DNA from: Hippasteria phrygiana
Lineage: Eukaryota > Echinodermata > Asteroidea > Valvatida > Goniasteridae
DNA length: 64,000 bases
Assembly: GCA_037893225.1 (NCBI GenBank)
Contig: JAZGUH010000719.1
Span: forward strand, 806,001-870,000
Reading direction: 5' to 3'
The notes beneath the pieces were generated by a model, which saw only the letters and a program-made list of their open reading frames with translations, made no database searches and was not told the DNA's origin. Below are positions 11,051 through 46,444 of this stretch, piece after piece. Position 1 is the stretch's first letter. The number at the start of each line of letters is the position of its first letter. Both the position numbers and the translations under genes were made by a program.

Positions 11051-11130
11051 CCGGATAGGTACGGTCCCATTATCAGTGTTGACGAGGCCAGTAGCGACCG
11101 CAATCTGACAATTGTCCGTAGCCTCAAGGT

Positions 11131-25220: not shown

Positions 25221-25638
25221 TGCGGGGGGCCGTGGGTCGGTCAAGTCATGATTATTCATCGAAAATTCGAAGCGCGGTACGGCAGGCAACTGCCGCGTGT
25301 CCGTTATTAGTCTAGGTTCCAAGACGTTCTTAGCGGTGCGACGTATAGCGGCCGACAGCGCCCTCTCGCTACACACACACGCGCCAAGGCCAAATCGCTA
25401 ACAACCCGATTTGGCCTTGGCGTGTGTTTGTGTGTAGCTAGAGGGCGCTGCCGTTCGCGCTGTACGTCGCACCGCGATAAGAACGTCTTGGAACCAAGAC
25501 TAGTCCGTTATATACCGTCTGCATGCATTGCCTGTCGTCGCAGACGGTATATAACGGACACGCGGCAGTTGCCTGCCGTACCGCGCTTCGAATTTTCGAT
25601 GAATAATCATGACTTGACCGACCCACGGCCCCCCCGCA
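25221..25638. repeat. Large palindrome with a second hairpin inserted in one arm
   Basis: Arms 25221-25397 and 25408-25638 are near-complete reverse complements around a CTAACAACC loop. Shared blocks include CGTGGGTCGGTCAAGTCATG, CGGTACGGCAGGCAACTGCC, GTTCCAAGACGTTCTTA and CCAAGGCCAAATCG. The right arm alone has an extra hairpin (25504-25558, CCGTTATATACCGTCTGC paired with its complement). The GGACGT/GGTTCCAAGAC motif links it to 22640-22675. Confidence 0.85.
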
Positions 25639-25776
25639 CATTACCCGGCTGGATGCATGCTGGGATATCTTACAGGCATGCATCTACTGTTTCGTGAGTG
25701 GTATAACGGTCGAGGTACGTGTTCGTGTGTAGATACATGTACATGTATGATGTGCCTGTTCCTGCTTATCACAGTT
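25639..25776 (+). other. Region upstream of the KRAB exon
   Basis: Unique-looking sequence with an ACATGTACATGTA tract (25734-25747). TCCTGCTTATCACAG at 25760-25774 is a good splice-acceptor match just before the ATG, so an untranslated first exon may lie further left. No promoter motif is recognised with confidence. Confidence 0.4.
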
Positions 25777-25903
25777 ATGGCAAAGGAGAGCGCTTCATCA
25801 GATGACATCCAACAGTTTTTCACTGCCACTGAGTTCAAGGCGCTCTCTGAGCAAGAGAAGCTTTGTCCAAGAAACATCAAGAAGAATCACGAGATAACAA
25901 AAA
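25777..25903 (+). CDS. PRDM9-like zinc-finger gene, exon 1: KRAB-type domain
   Basis: Begins at the ATG at 25777 in good context and ends at the donor AAA|GTGAGT (25904), phase 1. The 42 complete codons contain DDIQQFFTATEFKALSEQEK followed by RNIKKNHE. This fits the PRDM9-type KRAB box: acidic start, FF/YFT, E-W/F, SE-EK, then R-N-x-K-x-N. In PRDM9 this region mediates protein contacts in meiotic nuclei. The Trp of classic KRAB-A is Phe here. The phase and the following LPAHRRKSR exon match the PRDM9 layout, in which KRAB is followed by a short basic exon. The link to the finger exon 19 kb away rests on splice phase and homology order, not on transcript data. Confidence 0.7.
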
Positions 25904-26135
25904 GTGAGTTTACAATTTTTTTAATCAGCCACAATGGATTGAATACATGTAAACAGTTTTTATAAGCATGCTAAGTAGCAAAAAAAGCATGTAGCTTGAG
26001 AATTCCAGCTCTGGGCTCATATTACATGTGGAGGTAAATGCCATAGCCTGGATTCCCAGCGTTTTTTCTTTGAGTGAAGATTATCTTCCGTTTCCCTTGA
26101 ATAATAACAACCAAACACTCACCTACAATTACATT

Positions 26136-26189
26136 ACTCCTAGAACTATGAGGTTCCGTTCATGTCAGGAACCTCATAGTTCTAGGAGT
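26136..26189. repeat. 54-bp perfect hairpin with 11-bp direct repeats
   Basis: Arms ACTCCTAGAACTATGAGGTTCC (26136-26157) and the exact complement (26168-26189) surround a loop GTTCATGTCA. ACAATTACATT flanks it on both sides (26125-26135, 26190-26200). Length and 11-bp duplication suggest a minimal Mutator/fold-back-like insertion. It lies in intron 1 of the KRAB gene. Confidence 0.75.
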
Positions 26190-26358
26190 ACAATTACATT
26201 AGCCCACAGAGTAGTCATTCATGCAGCGTCTGATCTCAAAATTAGAATACGATCAAGTTAAACCCGAAAAAAATATTGTTTTTAATCGCGGTGATAAAAA
26301 CATGCGTAAATCTATATCTCTATGTAGCAATGCCATACTGGTTCCAAAGTGCTACACT

Positions 26359-26446
26359 GGCATGCTTCTTCTCAATTTGGAAAAAGCATTTGACACTGTG
26401 AACCATACAATTTTACTGGGTAATAAGCTGAGAGGGTTTCGAGTCA
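26359..26446 (+). pseudogene. Non-LTR retrotransposon RT fragment
   Basis: The reading LLLNLEKAFDTVNHTILL matches the conserved RT motif (D-x-x-KAFDTVNH) of LINEs such as CR1/L2/Jockey types. Both sides are unrelated, so only about 25 residues remain. It adjoins a minisatellite. Confidence 0.6.
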
Positions 26447-26662
26447 ACTCGGACCCACGGCCAACTCGGACCCACGGCCAACTCGGACCCACGGCCAACT
26501 CGGACCCACGGCCAACTCGGACCCACGGCCAACTCGGACCCAACGATGACCAACTCGGACCCAACGATGACCAACTCGGACCCAACGAACTCGGACCCAA
26601 CGATGACCAACTCGGACCCAACGATGACCAACTCGGACCCAACGATGACCAACTCCGACCCA
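26447..26662. repeat. Two-unit minisatellite (17 and 21 bp)
   Basis: About six copies of TCGGACCCACGGCCAAC are followed by about six of TCGGACCCAACGATGACCAAC (one lacking the GATGACC part). Both share CTCGGACCCA. Open in several frames because the unit lacks stops. Confidence 0.9.
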
Positions 26663-27770
26663 TCGTGCAAATGTTGCCTTTCAATGTTTTGATACACTAA
26701 GCACGAAGATGGCAATAGGTCCTCGTGTACATGTAGGCCTACGTGATTACAAGCAAAAATGAAGCACTCGGACAGGGCGGGCACTTGAACTTATGGATTC
26801 ACCACGAACGGGGCCTCTAGGGGGGGGGGGGGGGCAACCACTGTGGCAGAAAACAGGGGTGGAGAGGATGTATAGGAGGTTGACGATTTTCCTAAAAGAA
26901 CCCTCGATATAAACATTATCACCAGGCGGAATAGTTAGGACTTAAACCCCCGGCATTCCGCCTCTCCAGTAATTTCGCGATGGATCAACTGACCAAAGTA
27001 TATACCGGGTAATAACAAAGTTAACTTGAAGGGATCACCTCGCGGAAAAAAAAGACTGAAATAAGTACAGCCTGGAATCCAGAAATTCAGAACAAAACTG
27101 GAACAATATCACTTTAAGAAAATAACTTGCGACAAAGTTCTGCCTTTATACACAATCCTCAAGCCTGATGTTTCAAAGTTGGCTAATGTAATAAGTACAT
27201 CTCAGCTGATATTTAAACAACGTGATTAAAATATTACCAGCTGTTTGTTTTTGCGATGTTCTAAAACCTATGTTTTATAACCGACCGTAAATATTTTTGA
27301 CATTAATTAAGGCAAGTTTGTATTATCACTTTTTGTGTAAATATTTTTTTATAGCTTTTCATATTGTAAATGGAAAAAGTTTAGGCTGAAATTTGCTTAT
27401 AAATGATTGAATACCCCATTCAATCAGCACAACAAAATGGCCCAACAAATTTCAGACCTACCTACCCCTATTTTTGAAAGGCATGTATTAATTGGAAGCA
27501 GATTACTGACAATTTGGGAGACCGCCAACATAGGGCAAGAGGTAACCCACCTCGCAAGCAGCCTGAAGCAGGGTTAGAAATTACATACCTGGGTTAAGTG
27601 GGGTTTTGAGGCAGTTAACCTGGAAAATTTCTAACCCTGAGAAGTGTAGTGTGAACACTCCATAGTACTTGGGTAATCTCGGGGTTAAATTTTTTGTTAT
27701 AAACCCTGTGATTACCCGGGTAACAGTATAGTGTGAAGCAGCTATTATCCTAGCCTGACTGGTTCCATAT
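26663..27770. other. Non-coding stretch of intron 1
   Basis: A 12-14-nt G run at about 26821-26833 and a SINE fragment at 27504-27541 (CTGACAATTTGGGAGACCGC...) are the only recognisable items. No coding potential is seen. Confidence 0.5.
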
Positions 27771-29780
27771 TAGGGCTGTGCGTTCACGGGTAATTTTGGA
27801 TCCGGGTACCCGAACGCCACACTGGTTCGGTTCTCGGGTACCCGGAAGTGGACCGTAAAAAAACAAACAAAAAACAAACACTGTCTAATCATAGAGCAAG
27901 GTTTGTAATGTCCTTGTGTGCACCGTGCAGCCGCTAAAAGGCCCCCGCAAAAATAGTTTTGCTTCCGGTTACCCGATCTACCCAAATTTTACGGCTGCGA
28001 CCCTAAAATTTGTATCGGCAAGTAAAAACAAAACATTAAAAAATCAATAAAAAAAATAGTCCTGTTGTATTTTCCGTCTTCACAAAACGCCTCTCAATAA
28101 CATATTTCCGTCAAAAACGCTTGTAATTTGTTTGCCTACTTACATTCGCTATTTTTTAAAAAGAAACCTCCGTTGTTTTTACAAGTTCCCTTCGCGATTA
28201 CAAGTTCCTTTCGGTGTGTGATTTCCTATCACCATGATGAAAACACGTGTGTCATGCTCAATGCAGCAATGCTGTACTGGTTCCCGCCGCGCCGCCCACT
28301 AAGTGCCAAAGAAGGCATGATGGAAATGCGGCAACCAGTCTATGCATGCACTGCATGCCGCACGTGCACTGCACACAGGGCCGGGGCCGGGGAGCGAGTG
28401 CCGTGTGCTGATTGGACGGCACGTGTGCGAGGTGGACTCACTGAACTGCGTGATTGGTCTACTATGGCTCTTCATATGGACTTATTGGTTGTTCGGCGCC
28501 GGCCAGATATCACAACGTTCGTAATAGCCTGTGATTGGGCGACTGCACGGAGCGTGCCACTATCTTCTTGGTAAAAAAAGAGGTAAGCCTTGTCCAAAGC
28601 GATTTTATACTGGGGCGGTTCTTCTGTCGCAGGGACGGCGAAAAATATCCAGCACAAGAACAAAAATGGGGGGTCATGTAGTGTAACCGCCTTATTAAGG
28701 CAAAGTTACGATCTTGGCTTTGTGTTTATTACTGATTTCAATTATTTCAGGGACACCAGGACCTTTGAAATTGAACATTAATTATGTTAAATTTGACCTA
28801 TTATATAAGACATTCTCCATTGAAGACGTTTTCACAGCTGCAGTCATTACCTGTCGTCCAGTCTCTATAAAAATATCGTTTAGAAGGTTCAGATATTTAA
28901 AAAGACCTCGAGTACGGTTATTTACAGGAGGCGCCGGGGTGTCGCGCCGGCCTTTGCTTGTGCAGTCAAGCGTAACATACACAATAATCCAACAATGGAT
29001 TGAAATTGCACAAATAGCGGCAAATGGCGTCATCCGGCCTGGTGGTACTGTTTTTTGTTTTTTGCGCCATTTTGGCGTCTTCCGTACGCAAGGGGTTAAA
29101 TATTAAATCATCCACAGAGTACGAGTTAACCTGGCATGCCTGGGTACGAGTTAACCTGGGTACGAGTTGACTTGGGTACGAGTTGACAGGGCACATGTAC
29201 ATGTAGTCGGACACCAAAATAATCACACACCATAAAACAAATTTAATACTCCAAATTTAAGCAAAGCCTCCTCCAAGCAAAGCCTTGTATTGTTTTTGTT
29301 TTAACGTATACCCGTAGGCCTAATACGGAGAGCGCTTCCCATTCCCGCTGCCCCAGTGTCTGAGCAACGTTCACTCTCTCAAGATCAATATTACTCCCGC
29401 CCGCTCTTTGATCATACCGCGGAGCTAGTTTAGCGCCAGCGTAAACCGCAGTTCACTTCCATTGACAGACTATAATAAGCAACAAGATAGCTATAGATAA
29501 GATACAAACAGCGTTGGCCGACCACATTATTGATACTTTCCATTCACTGCATTTTTGTTGACGCATTGTTTTCAAAACACCGCCGGACGGTTCGGGTCTT
29601 TCGAGTCGGAACAGAGTTTGAAATATATCGAATTCTCTGTATTTATTTATTTATTTTTGGTATGAAACCTTACATTGAATTTTTCACCGTAAGTTTCGGG
29701 TACCCGAACCGGAAAAATGGAACCGGATATTGACGCCGGCATTCGGGTACCCGGGTACCCGGATACCCGGAACAGGCCTA
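27771..29780. mobile_element. hAT-1: non-autonomous hAT element
   Basis: A 2010-bp element with hAT-like ends TAGGGCTGTGCG and (complement of right end) TAGGCCTGTTCC. It is flanked by the 8-bp duplication TTCCATAT (27763-27770, 29781-29788). Subterminal regions repeat GGGTACCCG at both ends. The interior has a short tandem (GGGTACGAGTTAACCT/GACTT, about 29120-29190) and no transposase-like ORF; the 28128-28574 frame has no domain. Confidence 0.8.
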
Positions 29781-29814
29781 TTCCATATGACAGAGATATA
29801 ACTCTGAGAACTCA

Positions 29815-29835
29815 CCCCCCCCCCCCCCCCCCCCC
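29815..29835. repeat. Poly-C tract, 21 nt
   Basis: An uninterrupted C run just outside hAT-1, bounded by CTCA and AACAAAAAC. One of many such tracts in the window. Confidence 0.9.
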
Positions 29836-30142
29836 AACAAAAACACAATTTGTACACAATCAGTCTGAGCACACAGTCGTACTTCCCCAATACGTCCGAG
29901 GACAATGCTTTGTGTTTCCTATTGTTCCTTTAATATAACCAACCCCCATAGACTAAGCACGTATCCTTACGTTCGAGGACCGATTTCAACAAAAGACTCT
30001 ACGTTCGAGGACTGAAAGGTTTCTTTGTGTTTCCTTTCTTCTCTTGTCCTCGGAGATATATACAGTGCACGTACCAGAGTACAAGGCAGCTTGGCTTTGT
30101 GTCTCCAATCATCCCCCCACATGCCTGGTTTTTGGGTCATAC

Positions 30143-30522
30143 GCCATCAGCCTCGGTCCACCGGTATCAAATGATCGAAAGGAGCAATACTCATAGCGAT
30201 TTTTTGCAAGGTATGCACACCCAGAGTTGGAAAGTGTGTGATAGCATTGCAACGTGAGCGGTGGCAGATTTTTGGGGTGTTAGTACTTTTTTTTTTTTTT
30301 TTTCAAAATGGCCGCTAATATTCTTGTTACTGGATTAATTATATGTGGTAACAAGCATGTTGGCAGCCATATTTTTTAAAAGGGTGATAGCACCCAAAAA
30401 GCTGCCACCGCTGCAATGCTATGACATATTTTCCAACTTCAGGGGTGCATATACCTTGCCAAAAATCACCATGGGCATTATTCCCCTCATTTGATACCGA
30501 CTAACCCCCCAGGCTGATGGCC
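30143..30522. mobile_element. Long-inverted-repeat MITE
   Basis: Arms of about 145 bp (30143-30285 and 30365-30522) are imperfect reverse complements, sharing GCCATCAGCCT, CGGTATCAAATGA, TTGCAAGGTAT and CATTGCA...GCGGTGGCAG. The loop holds a T run (30289-30303). No ORF and no clear target duplication. Confidence 0.75.
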
Positions 30523-33457
30523 TATCATGGTTGACAGTGTCTGCTGCCAACAGGACAATTCTGAGCCCGGATTGGGGTTGGAGAATTAACTTTCCAGCTG
30601 TCAGCTTATCAGGCAGCATGATGTATATGTGTATATATACAATACTAGGTGAATAAAGTGTGACACACATGGCAAAAAATTAAAAGTTTTCAGGAACAAT
30701 GCAGAATCTTTTATTTCAATGTTCATCCCTCAAGCAAGCTACTTTAAAGGGGTAAAGATAGTTCGTCACAAGGAAGTCCACTTTTCTAGCTTTCAAATGT
30801 ATGTAGTTGCACTTGTAACGTATGTAACATGGTGTCTTTTAGGTGTCTGGCATCACACAAAGAGTAAGTTCCCTTTGACTTTGTATCATGTAGGTACATG
30901 TCTCACTATGATCAGACCAAGTACAAACAAGAAAAATATTCTGATTTTTTTTTAAAGTTTGAGTTACATGAGCAAGTAAAAAGGACACCGTTACATACGT
31001 TTGCAGCACATATTAAAGTTAATTAAAGTTTTTTATCCAGGTGGTTTTACAAGAACAATCTTCTATATTTTAAAGGGAAAGTTTGTTTATGATAAACACG
31101 ATGTTTAACGACATTTATTAAAATCCCATTTTCAACGAAAAACTGTTGTTAACATCATTTATTTAACATTTGTAACAAGGACACCGAACCAGAACACAAT
31201 ACATGTACATGTACTAACAATTTCTGTTTTTGTCATCACTCTGTACTGTACTATTCAAACTTATTCAGTTCAACTCCATTCAATTCAACTCCAATTTAGT
31301 TAAGTCAATTCAAGTTAATTAAATTAATTATTAATTAAATTAATTTAAAGAGGCAAGAAAATTTGTGAGGTCAGCTGAACAAAAAATTGAATTCTATGTA
31401 TTATTATTCAAAATTTTACTGCAATAAAACTTGCACGTGCTGGAAAACCTTGTGCTTGCATTCCATTAATGTGCCTATCAATCCCACTCCCCCCCCCCCC
31501 CCCCCCCAGGCTGCCCCAGGTCTTACAAAATGTATGTGGGGTTTGGTCATGTTTTTCAAGCACCAGGGTGGGGATTTTGGTCACTCATTTTTCCATTGTT
31601 TCCCCATCATAAGTTAAAACCATGAGGTGGGGATGCCCCAACCATGTATGTCGGGGATTGTATCTCAAATTTTGCCCCAGGGGTGGGGATTGTCACTTCA
31701 AAAATACTGAGTCTTTATTCACATGAAGAAGAGAATCCATAGAAATTATCATGATTATGTTTGCAACGACTGACACCAAAAAGTAGGCTGTGGTCTTGTG
31801 TCTCAATGTTACAAACGTATGAACTCCAATTACAAAATAATATGCAAATCTTGGGCAGGCTACTTTAAAAGTTATTGGGAATGCAAACACTAAAAAAACA
31901 GACACTGTTATTAGTGTTAAGAAATAGTTTCGTTCTTTATATTCAATGCAAAACGAACATTTCAACGCTCGCAACGGGAAAGACCCGACAAACATGCGAC
32001 ATAATCACGCGTGGTGTCTTTCCGTTACGACCAAAGTCGACATTAAAATTGCCGACGTTTGTTCACAGCTCATCACAGTCTAACACAGTGAGTGAAACAT
32101 AGCTTATTGCTACATTGCTGGCATTTAAGATCAGTGAAAAACTCGCTGATTCAGCCACGAATTGCACTAAAATCTTCGGAGTTACTTTTGAGAATTAACG
32201 TTCGTAAAATAAGACACGGTACAATCCAGCATTCGCAGCCATGATACAATAACAAAATCGACTTCAAACAAACTTGACGACATAATCGAGGAAAAATGTT
32301 GTGACAATTACATTAAATAGTATCTTAACTTTCTATATCAACAAGTACATGAAGTATCGAAGCCCGATGGCCAAAAATCACGATGTGATTTAGACGGATT
32401 TCATTTGGGTTCGAGCGTTGCTAACGTACGCAACACGGATTCCATGAGCGGACGACGAATAGTTCATGACCCCTATCCTCGTCCTAGCACGTGGAATCAG
32501 ATTATACCACGGTCTATAATACAGGAACACTGGTTGCCGGATTTTGTGTGTACGTTGCGCCGGAAACCATCGACACAAATTCGGAGGAGCTGCATGTCTT
32601 ACGTTCGTAACAAAGTGGACACGGAACAAGGACTCGTGAATGATTTTGATTTTATTTCGTTATTAATTAAGACATGGGAAACTCAGTGTTACAAAAATGA
32701 AAAATATTAAATTGGAGCGAAATTGGAAAGAATGGGAAAAGCCAGGTCTGAGACTGGTACGCATAAGAGTGATGTGGATTTGGGAAGAGGGGTGTCAGTA
32801 GATACATGTATCCCACCCCTGGATCCACCCCTGGTATTTGGAAACTACATTGTAATTCTGCTAAATAATTTTGTTAAATTAAATAACTGCAGCTAATTTA
32901 ATTTGTTTAATTTTAACACTTGCCTATAGCAATGTCGAGTTTACTTGACAAGGAAACCACACACCAGAGAATCCAAACAAATATCTTCACCATGTTTCAA
33001 TGAACTGTAGTGCTTGTGTTTTTCCCTGTCCATACATGATCTACCAGCAGAAAGAGCTTGTTCAGATCTTTCCAATGATGCTATCAAATTCATGTGTCAC
33101 CATTATAATATTTTGAGAAAACTGTTTCCGAAGTTTCCCTGTAGAGTTATGTATGCTTTCCTATTTGATAAAGCGGGCCAGAAGAGAATACATTCATAAC
33201 TTTGTTGTTTTAGCAGTTATGGCTTTAATTTTTACACCATATAAAAACAAAATTGATGGAAGAAACTTTGCAAGGTGTGAAACCTTTGGTTGATTTGCAA
33301 CCATTCAACAAGCAGTCAGCTGCTTTTTCTGTGTGAGTGGTTTTATGCTTGACTAAACAAAGAATGTGGTAAGGAAAGGGTTAATTTGTTGAATTTTTCA
33401 AAGTGAACAAAGAAACTGGTTTGTGGTTTGTTTGACGAATTGTTTAATTTTTGACAG
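30523..33457. other. Rest of intron 1, no gene recognised
   Basis: AT-rich sequence with an ACATGTACATGTAC tract (31202-31215), a 19-nt C run (31489-31507) and simple TTAATTAA-rich sequence (31315-31350). Short open frames (31387-31617, 31693-31995, 32405-32710, 33014-33199) show no domain and are treated as chance. Confidence 0.5.
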
Positions 33458-33537
33458 CATTACCAGCCCATAGGCGGAAAAGTAGAACTCCAGTGAAGCG
33501 TGTGAATCTAAAAACGTCAGCATCGGATGAATTGAAG
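33458..33537 (+). CDS. PRDM9-like zinc-finger gene, exon 2
   Basis: An 80-nt exon between acceptor TTTAATTTTTGACAG and donor AAG|GTACCA. It enters in phase 1 (joining the A left by exon 1) and leaves in phase 0. It encodes LPAHRRKSRTPVKRVNLK then TSASDELK, a basic patch. PRDM9 has a short basic exon (A-F-M-x-R-R type) directly after KRAB, so position and character agree. Confidence 0.6.
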
Positions 33538-33974
33538 GTACCAGTGCACTTGCAATTACATGTAATGCAATTATGTTTAACCACACATTAAAATTGTGTG
33601 TAGATTGTTTCAATTTTTGAAGTCGTCTTGAAATATACTTCAAATTATGTATGGGACCTTTTTCCATTTAGAAATTGAAAGCAACTATCACGTACCAACC
33701 ATGCTGTACTTTAGACTGGCCTTAGCTCCACGTATTGTGAAGTTAATATGCAATAATATGCAATACATGTATGCAAGCATACTCGGTCCTTGCCAGACCA
33801 TTAGTATTATTTGATATCACCATAACAAAAGCAATGGAAAGTGACTGCCAGCTTCGTGATTGAACGTCACATTTTGAAGATTAATTTTGAATGCTCAAAT
33901 GAATCTACCCAATAGATGAGGACAATTTAAGCTTGCAGTCACGATTAAAATTTAACATTTCTATAATCACCATA

Positions 33975-34115
33975 CATGTACATTCAATATTGGGTTTTGC
34001 CCTTCACCGACGTGTTTCATAAACACTGTATACTCAGTGTTGTCTCGGGTGGGCCTTGAACCCATGACCTCCTGCTTTCTAGTGCAGATGTCTTTACCAC
34101 TCGACCACCGAGCTT
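33975..34115 (-). mobile_element. tRNA-derived SINE, copy 1
   Basis: On the minus strand it starts GCTCGGTGGTCGAGTGG (A-box-like) and has GGGTTCAAGGCCC (B-box-like). A non-tRNA tail follows with CAGTGTTTATGAAACACGT and CAATATTGAATGTACATG. Confidence 0.7.
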
Positions 34116-34201
34116 GTCGGAGTCGGTTGGCTGGTTCAAATCTGATATAGCAGAAGGTACCGCAGCCAAACTATTCACAAGATAGAATTTTCATCGGGAT
34201 G

Positions 34202-34332
34202 ATGTACATTCAATATTGGGTTTCGCCCTTCACCAACGTATTTCATAAACACTGTATACTCGGTGTTGTCCCGCGAGATTATTTGGAAAAAATCACTCGG
34301 GTGGGACTCAAACCCACGACCTCCTGCTTTAA
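34202..34332 (-). mobile_element. tRNA-derived SINE, copy 2 (head truncated)
   Basis: Repeats the tail and B box of the copy at 33975-34115, with a short insert (GCGAGATTATTTGGAAAAAA) before GTGGGACTCAAACCCACGACC. The A-box end is missing. Confidence 0.65.
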
Positions 34333-34613
34333 TACCATACTCCAAATTTTAGCCAGTTTAAAAGGGGTCGGGTTTAAATTTCCATTTTATTGATTTGACT
34401 TGAAATGACCCCGTTTATAAATGTTTTTTTTTATTTTTTTAAATAAAGACTATGTTCTTTGCAGAAATCATTTATTGACCTGGGATTACTTTATACATGA
34501 GATGATGATTGTGAAGAGAATGTCTACCGGTACAGCTTGCCATTTTTATATTTTCTCTTAATCTGTCTGTGTCTTTGAATTATGATCATCAAAACAATGT
34601 TTGTAGATGTTAA

Positions 34614-36224
34614 AGAGGAACTAAAACGCCAATTTTTTTTTGACATTTTTGACTTATCTGATAGTTTATGCCTCCCCAAATCTAATGTAACAAGTTTCAT
34701 GATTCTGAAAAATCAAAAAAAATGTTTTTGAGCCTTTTCTTTCTGAGCCACTTTGACTCGATTCAGAAAAGGCCGAGGTCAACTGCGTGCCGTATCGCGC
34801 GAGTATTGACGTACACGTGTAGAAACATATGACGTCACTGTATTATACGACAATGTTTTACGTAGAGTCTGTACGTATTTTTTTGTCTAAGGCTAGTATT
34901 ACTTGCTGTGCTTTTTGCTCATGATTCAGGAGTAACACTACGATAAACATATTTTAAAGTGTTGACATCTTTGTGAGACACATTAAGAATTGGGGTTGTA
35001 GGCTTGTTCTTGCTGAAAAGCTAGTTATGAGTCATACTTTCCTTTGTTTGCAGTCGGCTTTTATTGGAACCTGCGCGGTGAGTTGTGTGTGAGCTGATGC
35101 TATACTCTAGTCTGGCGACTTTGATTATGCAGCCCTCATAAGGACCCGCACCTTCTCAGAACTATACACACAATTTCTGTTATAAGGTACCAGACTCAAT
35201 CGCATGCATCGAATGCGGTCATATGCAGCACGATATGGGGCAGCTTTTTTCACCATGCATCATCTGCAGGACCTACAACTTCCTACAGTCCTACACAAAA
35301 CTGGTTCACTGTATCCGTCTTTGCTTTTTACTTTGTGCACATTTCAATGGTGTAGGACTGTAGGAAGTGTAGGATCCTACAAAATATACGGAGTGAAAAA
35401 AGCTGCCTCATATCCGGCAGGGTATGCATGCGGTACCGTGCGTGTACAATGCATGTTGAGTCAAGCGAGCGTGGACAGGGAGACGACCGGGGCTCTCTGG
35501 CTGCTCGAGACGGCAACCGCAGTTAACGTCGTCGCGCTGGTGCGCGTGAGTCCGGGACACGATTGGAATGCTCGGTGCTTTTAGAGTTGGAATGGCTCCA
35601 TCCTTCAAACGGAATTGTGCCTTCAAACCCAGCTGAGTTTTCATACTAACACTATCATCTATTCTATACAGTCTTTGGCGAAATGTTCTGCACATATTTT
35701 CGACCATTTCGACAGCCCAAAATCAGATATTGTATTGTCTACAAAGCGGACCCACTGTCGCCTTTGAGCTCCATTCAGCACTGGGAATCGCAGTAAGGTT
35801 GGGTCAGGGTTTTTGTCGCTGTTCCTCATGCAACCCCCAAATACACATGATGGAGGCATAATGATTATCTCAGATCCATGGTCATACTGAAATAATATCA
35901 AAATTAGACAAAATAGACGGGAAAACGGAGGAGTTAGGTCGACAAAAACTCTTCAGCAGCATCAACTCTACGTACGTACATGCATAGTGTTTGGCTGTAG
36001 CATCAACCGACTCTACACATGTACGTCACGGGGTCACGTACATACATTTAACATACATAATGAGCTTTCGCGAAACAGGATAAATGGTTCAGAATAAACA
36101 ACCCTTTTTTTTTTAATAAAAAAATTTCTCTCGTCTGCGAACTAATCTCCATCAGTTAAAAGAGTATTTAAACTGTCGGAAAAGTCCAAAAAGTCAAAAA
36201 AAAATTGCCGTTTTAGTTCCTCTT
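34614..36224 (-). mobile_element. TTAA-flanked DNA transposon with a THAP domain (Kolobok-like)
   Basis: A 1611-bp element with about 35-bp inverted ends (AGAGGAACTAAAACGCCAAT left; same with one change inverted at right), flanked by TTAA (34610-34613, 36225-36228). TTAA is used by piggyBac and Kolobok elements. The AGAGG-type end and an internal THAP domain favour Kolobok. The catalytic part is not visible, so the copy is defective. It lies in intron 2 of the zinc-finger gene. Confidence 0.7.
35582..35859 (-). pseudogene. THAP zinc-finger domain, frameshifted
   Basis: Starts MPPSCVFGGCMRNSD at 35859. The C2CH ligands are Cys-5 and Cys-10 of that start (CVFGGC), and the later Cys and His of KICAEHF. 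The conserved Trp (QWVRF) and a proline after the first loop (LLRFPVL) are present. Near 35665 the frame changes, and the C-terminal THAP motif (equivalent of AVPTIF) continues as RLKDGAIPTL. THAP domains bind DNA and occur at the N terminus of P-element and Kolobok transposases. Confidence 0.7.
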
Positions 36225-36280
36225 TAATAGTATGGACAAGTTGGAAAAAACCTAAATCTATAAACTTATCTTTATTTTAG

Positions 36281-36458
36281 TCTCCATCCAGGCAAAATGC
36301 TTCTTCCAAAGCTCCAAGACAAAGGGATGATGAAGAAACATTGGACTACCTTGGTCCTGTGATAATCAAGGATGAAGAAGACCTATTACCAATAGAAAAC
36401 TTCCAGCCTCAAGATGCAGAGCCATTAAATCCAAAGACAAAGAGAATAAAAACAGAAG
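36281..36458 (+). CDS. PRDM9-like zinc-finger gene, exon 3 (linker)
   Basis: A 178-nt exon from acceptor TCTTTATTTTAG to donor GAAG|GTATTT, entering in phase 0 and leaving in phase 1. It is open without stops and encodes SPSRQNASSKAPRQRDDEE, then LDYLGPVIIKDEED and KTKRIKTE: acidic and lysine-rich, low-complexity linker character with no domain. VIIKDEE and IKTE resemble SUMO-consensus contexts, which is only suggestive. Phase continuity with exons 2 and 4 is the main support. Confidence 0.6.
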
Positions 36459-38040
36459 GTATTTGGTTGCTATTTTGACTCCCTTTAGTTACGTCTTAAA
36501 AATATAACAGCTTTCACAGCAAATAACTTGGGAAAAGATATTATTAATGCATCCACATATGCAGGTTATGGAGGATTATTCAAAAAGTTACATTTATTCT
36601 TTTGGAGGCTCGAAATGTTTCTAAACAGAGGGGAAGGCATTTAAAACTTGTAGAGCTCTGGAAAAGTACAGATAAAAATGCACTGCGCAATTGTACATTG
36701 CCATTTTAAAACATTACAGGGTACAGGATTCTGCCCCCGGGGATAAAACTATAGTGACAGGGAAAGTCATCCCCCCCCCCCCCCCCGACATAGATTTGTA
36801 TGTTTACAGAAATTTAAACTCTTGGACTCTGTGCAATGAAACTTTATGGAGGCACAAAGCAGTTACTGTCCTTTAAACAATTTAATTAATTAAACAATTA
36901 ATTTCCTCCTGTCCCATAAAAGGCGCAACAGCTACAGAAGATTCTTCCTTAGTTTTATTGTATTGTTATTTGTAATCCATTTTCTTTTATAGTTGAATGA
37001 ATGATATTCATCAGACAATCAGGGATGAGTGTGTGAAATATCTAGGGAGCATGCTCATTGTGAAACTGTTGAAATTTTCTAGTGCACTTATCCAAAATGT
37101 AAGAAAAGATACATGTTCGAGCAAAAATGCCTCACATGGTTGCCCCTCCTACAAAAATAGTTATGTATTATGGATGGCGTGGTCTATTCTGTCTCTCCAA
37201 GGATCCTCTTTTCCAAAATTTCTAAAAAAGGGCCCCAGCCTCATCTATTGAAGAGGACACCTGCTTCTTGTAACACCCTGCAAACTTACACAACTGATTG
37301 CACTTGTTTATTGGCTTTTCTGCTGCCATTTCCTATGTTTTTCTTTATGTGGAACTGCCAAAAGTGCGGAGCCATTTCCCGAAAGTGGAAAAAGTGGGGG
37401 CCAAATGCCCCCTCGCCAAATTCCCCCTCGCCAACCCCCCGTTCCGCCGCCATTGGTTCAAACTTGATATCTAGATAGCCAAGAATGTGTTACAGATGAA
37501 AATTGATGTGACTTCACACGATTTGATATACATTTTTTAGTTTTTGAACATAAAAGTTTCTTAAAGCCATATCTCATCAACAGAACATGCTAAATTCAAA
37601 ATTCTTTTTGCAATAGGTTTGTTAGCTCATACCTTCTTTCATGTAAAATGTGCTTTTTTAAAACCCATATAAAGTTAGGTCTGATCGTAATTAAAATTGG
37701 TGGGAAGGTAGATATTGTCACCAGCATGCAAAATCCAAAGTGACGTCATGACAGAGTTGTAATTAAGTCATTCAAAAGTCAATCACGATGATGCGATATT
37801 CGCCGCCCAAAAATCGAAATTGGCTACATGTTTTTTTCTAATCGAAAAATCGAGATATCGCCGATATACTTTCTAAAATTTCTTTTCGGTTCGGGATCAT
37901 TCTTTTTAAATGCTAATTCAATTTTAAAAATTACATGTGATTCAACAACTCGCAGAAAAATAAAAATAGGGGAGAAAACTGTTTTTTTTTTTCGGTTTAA
38001 AGTCTAAGTTTATAATAATGGACAAGCTGTCAGTAAATTC
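36459..38040. other. Intron 3, left part
   Basis: No confident gene. A 16-nt C run at 36771-36786. Around 37081-37250 several short coding-like tracts follow TTTTCTAG (see findings). 37560-37760 is a diverged copy of 44640-44850 (copy C of the intron unit: AAATTCTTTTTG...GGTTTGTTAG, GGTGGG-AGGTAGAT). Confidence 0.45.
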
Positions 38041-38439
38041 CCCCCCCCCCCCCCCACAGCCGTGTGGGAGGGGTCTACTAGCGAATACTTACCCGTAGAG
38101 CCACTACTAATGCATATTTCCCTAGAGGGCGCAATACGTCCGCCAAGAGTTCACACAATTGCCTACCCACCATGCCCTGCGGCACACCCGCCATATTTGC
38201 TTCCTCTTTTCTCGAGAGCCATAGCAGGTGAAGTCTGCATCGAGTCCCTCAGTGGGGAGGAGGGAGGGATGCTCTACGGGTAAGTATTCGCTAGTAGACC
38301 CCTCCCACACAGCTGTGGGGGGGGGGGGGGGGGTCTACAGCGCTCATCTTACCTGTAGAGCCACTACTAATGCAGATTAGCACCGAGGTTAGGAGGTGGG
38401 TTGTGAGATGCTACCGTGTGACAGAACAGTAGGTCCCGT

Positions 38440-39445
38440 CTACTGCGGCTGCTGAGGGAAGGCCTGTGAGGCTCGTGGAACATGGTCTCTCGCCGTCAGC
38501 AGCGCTGATCTTCCTGCGCATCCCTCGGACTGGAGAACGTCCTGGAGGCTGCAGGATATGAACGTGTTAGGAGTCTTCCAACACGCTGCCTTAATAATGT
38601 CACGTAGTGGTACTCCCTGGAAATAGGCCCACGAAGTTGCCACTGCGCTTACATCGTGTGCTCTGACTTTGGAGTCCACTTCTGATGCAGTCGGCCAGTT
38701 TCGTTCAGCTGACTGGATGGCTGTGACGATCCAGTGTGCAATAGTAACTCGTGAGGCTGCACGATGTGGGGGAATAGATGTGATGAAGAGATTTGACACC
38801 TTTCCCCGTAGCAGTTCGGTTTTGTTGATACCATTTCAGGGCGCGAACTGGGCACCATTTCCTGTCTTCGGACATGGAAGAGGAAGACTGAATGTCCGGT
38901 ATGAAGACGTCAGGAGGAACAAAGGATTCCGACTGATTCTTAGTGAGGAACGATGTATGTGGTACTAGCCGTACTCCATGTGGTTCCCAACGAATATGGC
39001 CAGGGTCAAGAGATAAAGCCTGAAGTTCGCTGCGGCGTCTTGATGTGGCCTTGATGGATAAGTTGAGCAAGGATGCCTGTTCCATGGGTTCATAAGGAGG
39101 TCGTGAAAGCGTTTGCAGGACTTGAGGGAAATCCCACGAGGGAAGGAGCTTGCGAGTGGGAGGTCTCTCGATGAACATACCACGGAGGATGTGGCCTAAG
39201 GTATGATTGGTGGAAATCGATGAGCCGTCAGGGAAGCCTCCATGAATGGCCGCTATTGCCGATCGGTAATTTTTGATGGTGGCTACCGTAAGGCCCGTGT
39301 TGAAGAGATAGACGATAAAATCGCCGACCTTGGTTAGAGTAGCATTGATCGTTTCGTCTGCACCATTTATAGTAATGTCGAAGTCGGCTGTTGTAGACTT
39401 TCCGGGTGGATGGTCTGCGGCTACCTGCTGCAAACGTGGCAGCAT
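38440..39445 (-). pseudogene. DIRS tyrosine recombinase (frameshifted, catalytic residues changed)
   Basis: 39445-38705 holds the core-binding part (TGLTVATIKNYRSAIAAIHGG) and the first catalytic Arg region (TSRRRSELQALSL). After a frame change near 38790, 38799-38440 continues with VRAHDVSAVATSWA and TPNTFISCSLQDV. In this family the first block should be H-x-x-R and the last should contain the nucleophilic Tyr (F-Y-x-x-D-V-like). Here they read HDVS and CS, so the second Arg and the Tyr appear replaced by Ser. The N-terminal part is in the RNase H frame near 39350, a further shift. Confidence 0.7.
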
Positions 39446-41174
39446 CTGCCGAAAGGCCCGCTGGATCGTTCGACAATACCCAGCATGTCAGGTGATGATT
39501 CTCGGGAGCTGGGTGAGTGATGGTCGAGTCCGGCTCAAAGAGAATGTCCGGACGACGTGGGAGGACAAGTGGTTCGTGGACTAGCAGGTCGATCAGTCTC
39601 GGGAACCATGGCTGTCGAGGCCAGAATGGGGCGATGAGGTGAAGTCTGCAATGTTCCCGTTCTATCTTCGTGAGAACTCGTGAGATCAGGGAGATTGGGG
39701 GAAAGGCGTATGCGAGCATGCCCTTCCATGGAATTGACAGAGCGTCGGTGTGCCATGCCCGTGGATCGGGTCGTCTGGAGCAGAACACCGGAAGCTGGTT
39801 GTTGATTCCTGACGCGAACAGATCTATGTGTGGGCGATCGATCATCAGGAAGATTTGTTCGACGACACTGCGCTGTAAGGTCCATTCTGTTGGCCGGATC
39901 CTTTCCCTGGAGAGGGCATCGGCTACAACGTTGTCCTTGCCTGGGACATGCGTGGCTGACAGCGTTATGCCGGAAGCTATGCACCAGTGAAGCATGTCCC
40001 ATGTGAGGAGGCAGAGCTGGGCTGATCGTGTGCCTCCCTCGCGGTTGATATATGCCACTACTGTGGTGTTGTCGCATTTGATGAGGACATGCTGGTTCTG
40101 TATGAACTTGCGAAAATGTCGGAGAGCATTGAAGACCGCATGCATCTCGAGGACATTGATATGTAGGTCCCTCTGGCCCGAATTCCACTTCCCTGCAGTC
40201 TGTCGCGGGTAAAGAGTGGCCCTCCAGCCAAGGCATGATGCATCCGTGGAAATAATCTTCATCGGTTGGGGTTTTGGAAAAACCAGTCCGCCTGCCACGT
40301 GAAGTGGATCCGCCCACCACTGGAGGTGTAAGCAGAGAAAGGGAGCAACTGGGACCATGCGATAAGCGGAGTGAAGCTTTGGGCGGAAGTGTGCTAAGAG
40401 GTGGAGTTGGAGTGGGCGCATATGGAGTCGGCAATGTGCCACAAGGTCCAGCATACTTGCCATGAGCCCCAGTAGTTTCAGCCATGCTGCTGCTGGGGCC
40501 GCCGATTCCCTGAGGAATAGTCAGACGCACTGTAGCAGGTTTTGAACACGCGCGTCCGTAGGGAAGGCCGTGCTTGTGCTGAGGTTGAGAACGGCGTTTA
40601 GGAACGTTGGTGTTCGAGTAGGAATTGGGTTTGATTTCTCGATATTAACGAACCCAAGTTGAGTGGTCAAAGTTAGAGTTTTGCGGAGGGCTCGGTTGGC
40701 TTCGAGCTCCAAGCGGCCAACAATGAGCCAATCGTCCAGGTACATAAACACCCTAACGCTGTTCTTGTGGGGAGCTCCACCCACGGATTTCACAATCCTG
40801 GTGAAGACCCGTGGGGAGGTCGACAGACCGAAAGGGAGCGCTGTGAATTCGTAGGTTACTCCTTTGTACTGGAAGCGCAGGAATCGGTAATGACGTGGGT
40901 GTATGGGCACATGCAGATACGCATTTTTCAGGTCGAGTGATGTGGCCCATGATGGTACCGGGATGGAGTCGAAGATTATCCAGAGTGAGTCCATACGAAA
41001 ACGTCGGGGATGGATGAATTTGTTCAAAGGTTTCAAATTCAGGATTGGGCGCCAGGTTCCCGAGTCTCGTTTGGGTGTTAGGAAAAAGGTTGACAGGAAA
41101 CCGGTCGACTCTCCTGCTGGTGGCGCTAAGTGGATTGCGTTCTTGAGCAGGAGCGACTCGATCTCTGATTCCAA
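39228..41174 (-). pseudogene. DIRS reverse transcriptase-RNase H (one nonsense codon)
   Basis: A single frame interrupted only by TGA at 40518-40520. RT: FFLTPKRDSGTWRPILNLKP, SLDLKNAYLHVPI, LPFGLSTSPRVFTRI and the catalytic YLDDWLIV. After the stop come LGLMASMLDLVAHCRLHMRP and RNase H with ISTDASCLGWRATL, LEMHAVFNAL, IKCDNTTVVAYINREGG and HVPGKDNVVADALSR. This order, with the LHMRPLQ link, is typical of DIRS and not of LTR elements. The frame ends downstream, shifted relative to the recombinase. Confidence 0.85.
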
Positions 41175-41400
41175 GGCGAGGCGTTTGGCCGGGTTGTCTG
41201 GAACCTCGGTTTGACGGAGGATGGTGTCCGACGGGGGGGGGGGGGGGGGGGGGGGGGGTGCTTGTGAACTCCAAAAGATAACCGAGCTGAATTGTCCGAA
41301 GCACCCACCGGTCGAAAACGACCTGGGACCAGGACCCTATGAAAGCTTGAAGGCGCCCCCTACGGGTCCGGCTTTGGGGGGTTCGCCGAAAACTAGACAG

Positions 41401-43460
41401 TCAACGCCGCCAGCCCCCGAAATACCGAGGGGCCGTTGGTCTGTAAGTCTGGCCACTTGGCCGGGTGGGTTGGCTTCGGCGTTGGTCCATCGGGTGTGTC
41501 GTGGGTTCGACGTAGCGGCAGAACGGCCACGAAAGAGTCGGCCCCGAAAAGATCTCGCAGAGCGGCCCAAAGGGGGGCTGGAAAGGCTGGGGTTTCTTAG
41601 CCTTTGCCTGATCCGGGCCGGGCTTTGAGGTCGATTTGCGAAGGTTGATCTTGTCCGTTGCATCAATTCGCTTTGCCTCGGCCTCCATGGCCTCTTGGAA
41701 CTTGCCAGCGAACAGGTCTGGCCCCGTAAGGGGGAGAGACTCTAGACGCTTGCGAGCACCCTCTGTCGGCAGGAAAAGGGCGTCCAATATATTGCCACGG
41801 CGATAGGTGGTCGTCAGTGTCGAATTACGGGAAAACTGTTCCAAGGCCAGGCGGAGAGAATCGTCCAGACTGCAGGAAAGCAGCTGAAAGCATGTCGAAT
41901 GGAATGGTAGAGCCATCCTCACAGCCCCTAACGAGGTATTCAGATAAGAGGAGCATGAAGGATGTGGTGCGCATGCCGAATCTAGAGGCCCAGTCTGCTT
42001 TCTTGAGAACGTTTTCCATCTTATTTCTAGTGGCATCCATAAACAAGGAGCGGGCTGAACTGGAAGCACTCCCGTCTGCAGTCAGTTTGTCCTTGACCAA
42101 ATCAGGGACCGATGGTACTGCTAGAAACTCATCAAAATCCTTCTGAGGGAAGCGGAAGTACGCATTCGCTCGTCTGTCGAAGGCCTTCCAATCCTTGCGA
42201 TTAGCGATCCCCTGAATATGCTTGATGCAGAACTGATCTTGGGGAAGGACAGGGAAGGGCCCGGGGCGGCCTGACGAGTCATCCGCGGCCGTACGTTGCT
42301 TGAATGACTGTTGGGGGGCGAGAACAGGCTCCGTGGCAGTCGAATCCGGTAGACCCAAAATGCGGATCATATCACGTTGTACCAGACGGAATTGGGTCTC
42401 CAGCGGGGACAGGTGTCGCGTGTCGATGACGTCATCACCCTTGTTATCCGAACCATGGTCCGACCGTGGGGTTCCTGCTGTAAAGGCTGCAGCGCGATCT
42501 GCGGGGAACATGGGGTCACGTAACGGGGCGACGGGAGGAGAGCAGAACACCTCCAAGCCCTGGCCCGAGCCCCCATCCGAGCCGGAAAGTTGTGTTGAAG
42601 GATGGATGGAGATAGCAGGGGGCGATGCAGGAGGACGGCTTAAAGCTTGAGGGAGATGTAGCTGATCGCGACGAACCCATCCAGGGTCAGGCGGAGCCGA
42701 TGGGGCGACACTGGGGGCGAGTTGTCCCATGCCCGGGGCATGTCCACCCTGCGGGGCAAGATGGCCTGCCTGGGGGGGCAAACTGGCCCGTGAACGGGGC
42801 GAGTTGTCCCATGGGAAAACCTGAAGATGACATGGCCGAAAGAGATGCCGAAAATGCCTGGAAAGCCTGCAGAAAATCGGCCGTCGAAACCGACCTCGAA
42901 TGCTTGCGATGTTTGGTGCGGTGCTGGGCTCGGTCCGAAGAAGACTCCGAGTCGGATGACTGGTGGCGCCGCTTATGGCGGGAGGATTTAGCCTTCTTCG
43001 CTAGGCGGCCCCGGCGCTCTCCTGATGTGGGTTCGGAAGAAGGTGGGGCCGCGGTTACTCCGGAACATCGAAAGAATTCCGAGGTTGAAGACAGACTGGT
43101 CGGGGGGACCGGAATGGTCGACTCCAAAGACCGGTGAAGATCCCCCACTGACAGGCCAGGCACTGGCGGGCCGGTGTCGGACTGGAGTGTGGGGGTAGCC
43201 TGATGGTCTTGACCCGTTGGGGACCCAAAGGCTACCACCGGAGGCCCGGTCACGCTTGGCGTGCCGGGGGCCTTGAACACAGAGCTTGAAACCGGAGCTT
43301 GTGCCGAGGCAACAGAGGGCAAGTGACTGGGGGGATTGCCTAGCTTGCCCTTGAAGCTAACTGCCGTGGCTCTATGCTGACGGCTCTTACCGGCAGGCTT
43401 CTTGATCGGCTGTTTGTCCCCGTGACTAGCGGCCGGAGGAGTGAGCTGGCAATAGCGCAC
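41401..43460 (-). pseudogene. gag: DIRS gag-like ORF (frameshifted)
   Basis: Three overlapping frames: 43460-42687 (Ser/Pro-rich start, then a basic SRHKRRHQSSDSESSSDR tract), 42781-41825 (FPVLPQDQFCIKHIQGIANR, FRFPQKDFDEFL, FGMRTTSFMLLLSEYL) and 42069-41401 (GNILDALFLPTEGARKRL, LTGPDLFAGKFQEAM). Together they resemble the first ORF of DIRS elements. Frame changes lie near 42720 and 41870. There is no zinc knuckle, as expected for DIRS. Confidence 0.65.
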
Positions 43461-44099
43461 CTCCCGGTCTATAGGGCCACCGCCACTCGGTCCCGGGTGG
43501 CGGGGTGAAATCTGCGTACGAGGGGGGGGGGGGGGGGGGTGCCCCTGGCAGATTCCCGGTCAAGGGAGAGTCCGCGGAAGGGAAAACCTCCGGAGACACA
43601 CCCCCTGAAGGAGCCGGCGGTCCCGTGGAACCTCCGTGCCCCCAGCCGATCTACGCTTCACATTGTTATCCATCATACATACACGTGAAGTCAAAACAGT
43701 ACTGAAATGAACGTACTTACGGGGACAAACACATAGACAAAATGAAGACATAAGAGAAGGAAGATACTCTACTTTATTATCGAAGAAGACAAACTCGAAG
43801 CGGACTAAGGATGGTGAAGAAATTCCCGGATTGTGCTGCGGGAAAAACACGTCTATCACCGTCCGACGCCAAGAGAAAAGAGGAAGCTAATATGGCCGGT
43901 GGGCTGCGGGGCATGGTGGGTAGGCTATTGTGTGAACTCTTGGCGGACGTATTGCGCCCTCTAGGGAAATTTGCATTAGTAGTGGCTCTACGGGTAAGAT
44001 GAGCGCTGTAGACCTAAAGTATACAATCAGCGTACTCCGCACTTCATTGTAATAAGTAATTTCATTCACATGCAAATTAGCCAGCCCAGCTCTGGCCAT

Positions 44100-44240
44100 T
44101 TGAAGCACGATATGTGGGCAAGGGACACCCCCCCCCCCTCCCCCCCTTGTGTCGGTCATTGTGTTCCCCGAATCTCAGGAATTCCTTTAAGAAATCTAGG
44201 GAGATATGTTAGGTAACAATAGTCTGGAGTGTATAGGGTA
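44100..44240. mobile_element. MITE remnant, CGATATGGGG family
   Basis: TTTGAAGCACGATATGTGGGCA, a C-rich tract (44127-44146), TTGTGTCGGTCATTGTGTT and AGTCTGGAGTGTATAGGGTA follow family order. The far terminus is lost. 44241-44770 has only an inverted 14-mer (GATATCGCCGATAT at 37854, complement at 44435) and copy-C-like intron sequence. Confidence 0.6.
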
Positions 44241-45002
44241 ATGGCTCTGGCTAGTGGCGGTAACAAAGAAAAGGCTTTGATCCAGATATCCGCAGACAAA
44301 GCTTAGACTACGCTGTTTCTCAATATTGATGGTTGGCCTAAGAACGACCTCAAACACGTCCGGCGATTATGTAGTTATGAAAGAACTTTTGCGACATTTC
44401 AATCATGCTGAAATTTGTTGACTATTTTATCGCCATATCGGCGATATCGCAAGGGTACAAAAATCGACTTCGAAAAAAATCAATCTCGTCAGCCCTAGGC
44501 ACAAGGCAGATCACAAGTCAATCACAAGCTAAATGGGATGAGCAATGACAAAGGAATGCTTTTGTTATATAGTGTGTTTGAATAGCTTGTTACATGGCTT
44601 GAGACCAGAATTGTGATGCAGTTTTATAGCATTTTAAAAAGTGCTAATTTTAAACATGTTAATTTCGAAATTCTTTTTGACATGGTTTGTTAGGTCCTAG
44701 ATATGTAAAAGAAATATGCAAAATACGTGTGACATCATAATGACATAATTTCTTGAAACACATGTAAATTGGTGGGCCCAATTGTCATGAAACCTGGTGG
44801 GTAGGTAGATTTGTCACTAGTAAGCACATTTTGAAGTGACATCATAAAAAATAATGCGGAAAAGCCTAGTTCATCGACGAGACATAGACCTCTTGTTGAA
44901 ATTTTATTTATGGTGATATATAGAGAAATGGGTTTGATTTTTAGTGGTCCAGTTGTTTGAATTTGCTGTCAGCCTCCGACTTTGTATTTCCTTTTGGCAC
45001 AG

Positions 45003-46444
45003 ATGCTGAGCGTCATCCATGTCCAAAGTGTAGTAAGATCTTCACAGATTACAAGTTTCTGGCTGGACATCTACGGCATTCTCACCAGTCTTTAGCTGAG
45101 TGGTATGACTACCTGAAGCAGCAGAAAATCAAAACATCGGTCTTCAATATTAATGCATGTAACAAGAGAGCTGCGTCGCAGTTACATAATTCACTTGGTA
45201 GTATGCGTATATCATTTAGGAAGGGAACTCGGCAGCTGAAACTCACGAATAAATCAAAGCAGCTAGTCTGTAGTCACTGTGATAAATCATTCACAACAAA
45301 AGGTAACTTGAAGTTGCATATGAGGATCCATACAGGTGACCGTCCATACACATGTAGCCACTGTGATAAATCATTCACACAAAATGGTGTCTTGAGGAGG
45401 CATATGAGGATCCATACAGGTGAGCGTCCATACACATGTAGCCACTGTGATAAATCATTCACACAAAATACTCACTTGAGGGAGCATATGAGAATCCATA
45501 CCGGTGAGCGTCCATACACATGTAGCCACTGTGATAAATCATTCACACACAATAGTTACTTGAGGGAGCATATGAGGATCCATACAGGTATTAAGCGTCC
45601 ATACACATGTAGCCACTGTGATAAATCATTCACACACAATGGTCACTTGAGGACGCATATGAGGATCCATACAGGTGAGCGTCCATACACATGTAGCCAC
45701 TGTGACAAGTCATACACACAAAAGGGTAGCTTGACTATGCATATGAGGATCCATACAGGTGAGCGTCCACACACATGTAGCCACTGTGATAAATCATTCA
45801 CACACAATGGTCACTTGAGGACGCATATGGGGATCCATACAGGTGAGCGTCCATACAAATGTAGCCACTGTGACAAGTCATACACACAAAAGGGTAGCTT
45901 GACTATGCATACGAGGATCCATACAGGCGAGCGTCCATACACATGTAGCCACTGTGATAAATCATTCACAGATAAAGGTTCCTTGAAGAAGCATATGAGG
46001 ATCCATACAGGTGAGAGTCCATACAAATGTAGCCACTGTGGCAAATCATACACACAAAAGAGTACCTTGACTATTCATACAAGGATCCATACAGGCGAGC
46101 GTCCATACTCCTGTAGCCACTGTGATAAATCATTCACACACAATGGTGACTTGAGGGAGCATATGAAGATCCATTCAGGTGAGCGTCCATACACATGTGG
46201 CCACTGTGATAAATCATTCAGACGAAGTACTCACTTGAGGATGCATATGAGGACCCATACAGGTGAGCGTCCATACACATGTAGCCACTGTGATAAATCA
46301 TTCGCACAAAATAGTGTTTTGGGGATGCATATGAGGACCCATACAGGTGAGCGTCCATACACATGTAGCCACTGTGATAAATCATTTACACAAAGTTGTA
46401 ACTTGAGTACGCATATGATGAGGATCCATAGTGTTAAGGCATAG
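45003..46444 (+). CDS. PRDM9-like zinc-finger gene, terminal exon: proximal finger plus 14-finger C2H2 array
   Basis: The acceptor TATTTCCTTTTGGCACAG precedes 45003. Entry phase 1 completes GAT (Asp), and the exon runs 479 codons to TAG at 46442-46444. The opening [13 protein letters not shown], then [12 protein letters not shown], is a lone finger (C-x2-C-x12-H-x4-H). It matches in place and sequence the isolated HPCPSC finger of PRDM9. A linker of about 60 residues leads to 14 tandem fingers (from about 45270) of 84 bp each, with TGERPYTC linkers. Residues -1, 2, 3 and 6 vary strongly while the framework hardly changes. Fingers 5-6 and 7-8 have identical contact sets (HGHT, QGSM), a recent two-finger duplication. 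Finger 5 has an extra linker residue (TGIKRPYT). Probable role: sequence-specific DNA binding. A meiotic function is inference. Another C2H2 family member is the alternative. Confidence 0.85.
45268..46430 (+). repeat. 84-bp coding minisatellite (zinc-finger array)
   Basis: About 13.8 units of 84 bp encode the finger array. Blocks such as CCATACACATGTAGCCACTG and GATAAATCATTCACACA recur almost unchanged, so unequal crossing-over or gene conversion is likely. Confidence 0.9.

Follow-up and report, generated by a model that had tools for sequence, protein, structure and literature searches.

A predicted KRAB zinc-finger gene of the sea star Hippasteria phrygiana, probably a PRDM9 paralogue that lacks the SET domain

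In a 64-kb stretch of the Hippasteria phrygiana genome (positions 806001-870000 of contig JAZGUH010000719.1, here C719; the whole stretch is referred to as the window), a predicted gene at window positions 25777-46444 joins a KRAB box to a C2H2 zinc-finger array and derives from PRDM9, the gene that in mammals sets the sites of recombination on chromosomes. It is probably a SET-less PRDM9 paralogue within a tandem family of one echinoderm lineage, and the predicted protein comprises, in order, a KRAB-A box, a basic exon, an acidic linker, a lone HPCPKC finger and a diverse array of 14 tandem fingers, giving 15 C2H2 motifs in total. The four exons form a frame of 608 codons that is open when joined. 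AG acceptors precede exons 2-4, consensus GT donors (GTGAGT, GTACCA and GTATTT) follow exons 1-3, and the junction phases obtained from the exon lengths are 1-1, 0-0 and 1-1. From the exon coordinates, the introns measure 7.6, 2.7 and 8.5 kb. An earlier, sequence-only reading had given these exon coordinates, phases and finger count, and the joined frame showed all of them to be correct.

The whole window was searched by tblastn, with filters off, using residues 1-418 of human PRDM9. The best match was the lone finger (E 1.5e-4) and the second was the KRAB box (E 0.079), with correct strand and order; no persuasive SET match appeared. Profiles for KRAB-A, KRAB-B, SSXRD, SET1 and SET2, built from the PRDM9s of other species, were run against open frames from three regions: the window, C719:696001-806000 and 80 kb of contig C430. 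Among these frames the KRAB-A profile matched KRAB exons only, namely those of C430, the window and two further copies on C719, g1 and g2a, the last being matched twice, once partially. KRAB-B and SSXRD were matched in C430 and g2a, and SET1 and SET2 in C430 alone. Of the domains sought in the window, KRAB-A was recovered at E 1.6e-9, but SSXRD, SET1 and SET2 gave no match at E <= 1, and the single KRAB-B match (E 0.55) lay on the opposite strand. The SET profiles also found nothing in the open frames of C719:696001-806000. SET exons elsewhere in the window were ruled out by the profile search of its open frames. A lone-finger profile drifted into a general finger profile and had no test value.

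The Pfam KRAB model (PF01352) did not match the window box at E <= 1; this was a weak test, as the C430 protein and the g2a KRAB were also missed at E <= 10. Its genome search returned no match anywhere, controls included. Because these sea-star KRAB boxes escape this model, it was set aside and the PRDM9-derived profiles were used in its place. By eye, the KRAB motif of the window gene reads RNIKKN, the gapped ancestral form, and the modern MLE motif, which is associated with TRIM28 binding, is absent (PMC8835667, section 2.1). The PRDM9 features found in the window gene were an ancestral-type KRAB-A, a lone finger that opens the last exon and is followed by the array, diversity at the contact residues, and PRDM9 descent; SSXRD and the PR/SET methyltransferase domain were not matched. 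With KRAB and a C2H2 array but no SET, the gene also has the make-up that defines KRAB zinc-finger genes.

A second copy that does bear SET, which the sequence-only reading had proposed to look for, was found on C430. Its order, with splice points placed by eye, is KRAB-A, KRAB-B (GLKVPKPEFM), basic exon, linker, SSXRD, zinc knuckle with SET1, SET2, lone finger and fingers, and the Pfam PR domain matched its protein at E 1.2e-44. All four window exons have counterparts there in identical order. Window exon 1 showed 77.5% identity to the first 39 residues of the C430 PRDM9, and an 87-residue segment containing the lone finger was 86% identical. The best protein matches of spliced C430 (best 120 of 569) were the PRDM9s of Patiria miniata (77%), Acanthaster planci (74%) and Asterias rubens (63%), so that among the matches listed the nearest annotated PRDM9s are sea-star proteins. 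In the last exon of this copy (region of C430:1415484, minus strand), the array shifts reading frame after five complete fingers. The shift reflects a genuine truncation or an error of assembly, and it bears on whether the species keeps a working PRDM9.

The protein tree had nine rows, with one of the two Asterias copies, no Amphiura and no vertebrate KRAB zinc-finger protein (KZFP) rows; three rows were partial (g0, last exon only; g2a, front only; g2b, without KRAB). The window copy, g1, g2b and g0 grouped together with support of 99/99, and these four with C430 and g2a formed an own-species clade (96/98) apart from Patiria and Acanthaster. Given this grouping, the copying of PRDM9 looks specific to the Hippasteria lineage. 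The earlier proposal of a PRDM9 paralogue minus SET was thus borne out by the SET copy on C430, the four-exon order and the position of the window copy among the PRDM9s of its own species; the losses of KRAB-B and SSXRD had escaped it. When the protein database was queried with window residues 1-214, two of 431 candidates were returned, both PRDM9s (Patiria and Acanthaster). With the C430 KRAB region as query, 11 of 23 candidates were returned, all with a PR or SET domain. Both searches are weak negatives because shared words were required. Several Lytechinus pictus proteins (P0009, P0012 and P0121) show matches to the KRAB region together with a PR or SET domain; two of them bear the names zinc finger protein 724-like and 345-like.

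The genome (944 Mb in 1285 contigs) was searched with individual exons. The window KRAB exon was found in four places: the window, two sites upstream on C719 and one on C430. The lone-finger exon was found in ten, five of them close matches: the window itself, three more sites on C719 and a single one on C430. Exon searches for the cluster copies covered C719:696001-880000. The copy g1 has the same four-exon structure as the window gene (KRAB-A, basic, linker, lone finger) and lacks KRAB-B, SSXRD and SET; its splice signals are kept and its frame is open for 717 codons to a stop. The front half seen in g2a (C719:764982-772913) comprises KRAB-A, a KRAB-B exon that is present twice, and SSXRD; SET was not found there. 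In g0 (C719:673070-673630), damaged SET exons have kept their position, and the last exon downstream of them is open and carries an array. SET1 is missing the segment that contains the GLGVW motif, and the SET2 sequence is disrupted. No convincing KRAB was found in the 9 kb upstream of g0, where the best front-exon match was to the basic exon (34%, E 0.020). Genome-wide, the SET1 exon of C430 gave six matches at E <= 10, and only C430 and two pieces of g0 (C719:673 kb) were below E 0.2. Its SET2 exon gave 15, headed by C430 (100%) and g0 (77%); the other 13 (33-50%, best E 2.7e-12) are presumed to be other PRDM/SET genes. By these searches, the sole unbroken SET copy found is that of C430.

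Four-exon dN/dS was calculated for the window gene, g1 and C430, as the other copies do not have all the exons, and the array was excluded. Over 213 shared codons, dN/dS for g1 against the window was 0.51 (p 0.0185, uncorrected). For the window and g1 against C430, the values were 0.38 and 0.56 (each p < 0.05, uncorrected; 213 codons), and these two take in constraint on C430 itself. Uncorrected p was below 0.05 in all three four-exon tests and in three of the six three-exon tests. The shared exons of g1 and the window differ by two gaps, both in frame. Over 880 aligned bases, the non-coding flanks of these two copies differ by 21 gap events; when one poorly matched pair of the four, with 37% differences and of doubtful homology, is left out, 18 remain in 730 bases. 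In simulated neutral histories (0.072 changes per site), the whole window frame stayed free of stops in 0.5%, and the 642 nt before the array in 14%. The open frames, the in-frame gaps and the modest dN/dS of 0.51 point to coding constraint on the predicted window copy and g1. Strong purifying selection is not claimed, since only part of the uncorrected tests was significant and those with C430 also reflect constraint on C430.

Several observations weigh against a SET-less paralogue that has been kept for use. The gene model is a prediction read from sequence alone. The window KRAB is shorter, aligning over 31 of 36 profile positions, and has a proline, common to g1, where C430 has leucine. 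At the 5' end, homology of the window copy to the other copies covers only about 20-25 nt before the ATG, and those copies have more than 200 nt of 5' flank in common among themselves. In the 1.5 kb examined past the g1 stop, the DNA holds another two complete finger motifs. Single-exon tests reached p < 0.05 in 10 of 36 pairs, none of them g1 against window, and the basic exon looks free of constraint (dN/dS about 1.1 against C430). The last exon of g1 is close to that of g0, which retains SET remnants, and therefore either SET disappeared on more than one occasion or the copies have been mixed by conversion.

In the light of some of these points, the copies could be recent PRDM9 duplicates that are dying, with open frames left over and no useful protein. 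The divergent 5' flank of the window copy and the motifs past the g1 stop would fit such decay, as would the broken SET of g0 with no front exon in the 9 kb read upstream, and the apparently rearranged g2a/g2b pair. There is also precedent in placental mammals, in which, according to PMC5519329, most partial PRDM9 orthologues have no array or a truncated one, and primate PRDM7 is little constrained. This reading is nevertheless judged unlikely, as the four exons and their splice signals are retained in two copies, with open frames of 608 and 717 codons, the compared exons show only in-frame gaps, and dN/dS is below 1.

The route by which a SET-less paralogue could arise is visible at g1. There, homology to C430 breaks off after the 3' end of the SSXRD exon and resumes within 11 nt at a point 3' of SET2, about 8.0 kb downstream in the present form of C430. 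A deletion inside SSXRD is common to g1 and g2b (by eye, consistent with the alignment). In the window, homology at a stretch of intron 3 (Table 1) skips the SSXRD and SET exons: in the reversed C430 stretch the preceding match ends at 21181 and the next starts at 31066, and in g1 the corresponding positions are 28895 and 29498. The window also lacks the stretch that carries the g1-type deletion scar. The frame survives these losses because the remaining exons on both sides join in phase 1. The sequence-only reading had allowed that the SET exons were merely displaced by the intron 3 retroelement; this is contradicted by the g1 deletion junction and by the lack of SET profile matches in the open frames of the window and C719:696001-806000. 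As the cause of SET loss, the element was rejected for g1, which has the deletion junction. A tyrosine recombinase in the element was not confirmed by Pfam. Window positions 44147-44240 match a C430 intron (72%) out of order, an unexplained observation that also counts against the main reading.

The same data bear on the idea that the assembly simply lacks the SET exons, or that they are spliced in from afar. The repeat-rich introns and the number of contigs leave some room for it, but C719:696001-880000 contains no N, the g1 junction is continuous sequence, the SET1 search below E 0.2 gave only C430 and broken g0, and the SET2 search was led by those two at 100% and 77% with the 13 others at 33-50%, which makes it very unlikely. 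That the KRAB-like and finger exons belong to different genes in line by chance is scarcely credible: the introns are long and the model was assembled from the DNA only, but the exon order is repeated in C430 and g1 with matching phases, and the public Patiria PRDM9 protein spans the corresponding joins.

Finger statistics were restricted to fingers that match a single pattern, which 13 of the 14 fingers of the window array do. Amino-acid diversity was concentrated at the DNA-contact positions -1, 2, 3 and 6, where mean entropy was 2.09 compared to 0.43 elsewhere, a value reached by two of 5985 choices of four columns. At the contact residues pN was 0.48 and pS 0.13, compared to 0.08 and 0.16 elsewhere. 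The other four arrays showed the same trend. The fingers cluster by gene only weakly, the observed value being reached in 86 of 2000 shuffles, and the contact diversity may therefore predate the loss of SET, which is a further point against diversification of a SET-less gene.

As a SET-less PRDM9 paralogue, the protein would use its array to bind DNA but would not methylate H3, and the ancestral-type KRAB and basic region would recruit partners. The product may be a chromatin factor that resembles KRAB-ZF proteins in its action, with the germ line as its likeliest setting, directed against repeats or competing at PRDM9 sites. A broader proposal is put forward tentatively: the cluster could record a second, independent birth of a KRAB zinc-finger family, in which tandem PRDM9 copies of one echinoderm lineage lost KRAB-B, SSXRD and SET through deletions neutral to the frame and their fingers are now diversifying in an arms race that does not depend on SET. 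Retroelements would be one example of an opponent, and g0 and g2a would be intermediates that persist in the cluster.

The coordinates of the features are collected in Table 1. Elsewhere in the window, a 16-bp tandem repeat (55087-55541; 28 copies, 97%) is open in more than one frame, other retroelement reverse-transcriptase and gag-protease reading frames lie at 10154-13038, 18297-20039 and 47609-48151, and an open frame on the minus strand (3660-4955) starts with C2H2-like motifs (by eye).

Table 1. Features of the predicted gene and its surroundings, in window positions
Feature	Position	Length	Strand	Remarks
5' flank, no homology to flanks of other copies	25224..25751		.	inverted repeats in part
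Exon 1, KRAB-A box of ancestral (PRDM9) type	25777..25903	127 nt	+	phase 1 donor GTGAGT; profile E 1.6e-9
Exon 2, basic; homologue of PRDM9 exon after KRAB-B	33458..33537	80 nt	+	60% to C430, E 0.001
Exon 3, acidic linker; homologue of PRDM9 exon preceding SSXRD	36281..36458	178 nt	+	74% to C430, E 3e-25; phase 1 donor GTATTT
Intron 3 stretch, homology skips SSXRD and SET exons	37142..37247		+	
DIRS-like retroelement in intron 3	38040..44014		-	inverted ends; reverse transcriptase and RNase H
Exon 4, from lone finger through linker and array of 14 fingers to stop	45003..46444	1442 nt including stop	+	joined frame; exon match to C430
Lone HPCPKC finger, start of last exon	45008..45091		+	PRDM9 hallmark; 46% to human PRDM9
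Tandem array, 84-nt unit, 13.7 copies	45269..46418		+	

The predicted gene shares KRAB-A, the basic exon, the linker, the lone HPCPKC finger and terminal fingers with the PRDM9s of sea stars (Patiria miniata P0001, Acanthaster planci P0002 and C430), and its residues 1-214 are 70-71% identical to the Patiria and Acanthaster proteins over 36-37% of the query. Unlike them, it has no KRAB-B, SSXRD or PR/SET exons. SSX genes have KRAB and SSXRD but no SET; the front half of g2a, with KRAB-A, KRAB-B and SSXRD, resembles them, whereas the window gene has no SSXRD. PRDM9-beta and PRDM7 are likewise PRDM9 relatives that lose domains, but according to PMC5519329 PRDM9-beta is without KRAB and SSXRD and keeps SET, and PRDM7 lost its fingers, whereas the window gene loses SET and keeps KRAB-A and fingers. 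Its likeness to vertebrate KZFPs, including the coelacanth ancestral-KRAB type, lies in KRAB with a long C2H2 array, no SET and a tandem cluster (KZFP features in part from PMC8835667 and PMC4592553). It differs from them in lying inside the PRDM9 lineage of one species and in having the PRDM9 lone finger, an ancestral-type KRAB-A and no KRAB-B.

The parallel with the origin of vertebrate KRAB zinc-finger genes, drawn by the sequence-only reading, is fair as regards architecture (KRAB and C2H2 array, no SET). In PMC8835667 (section 2.1), 666 ancestral-KRAB entries from 155 species are described as orthologues or paralogues of PRDM9 and SSX and as coelacanth KZNF, and according to PMC4592553 a KRAB-ZFP derived from PRDM9 apparently lost its SET at some point. 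Among the open-access titles and abstract openings listed by literature searches, none dealt with a SET-less PRDM9-derived KRAB zinc-finger gene outside vertebrates. The predicted locus is an invertebrate counterpart of the SET-loss step inferred for the vertebrate genes, and because a single genome contains the donor gene together with a junction resolved to the base and intermediates that are broken, the steps can be ordered and tested. The cluster copies also bear on a rule for vertebrates, in which, according to PMC5519329, fast finger evolution occurs only with the complete PRDM9 domain set (KRAB, SSXRD and SET), with one possible exception: here SSXRD and SET are gone, yet a similar contact-residue signature is present, unless it was inherited from before the loss.

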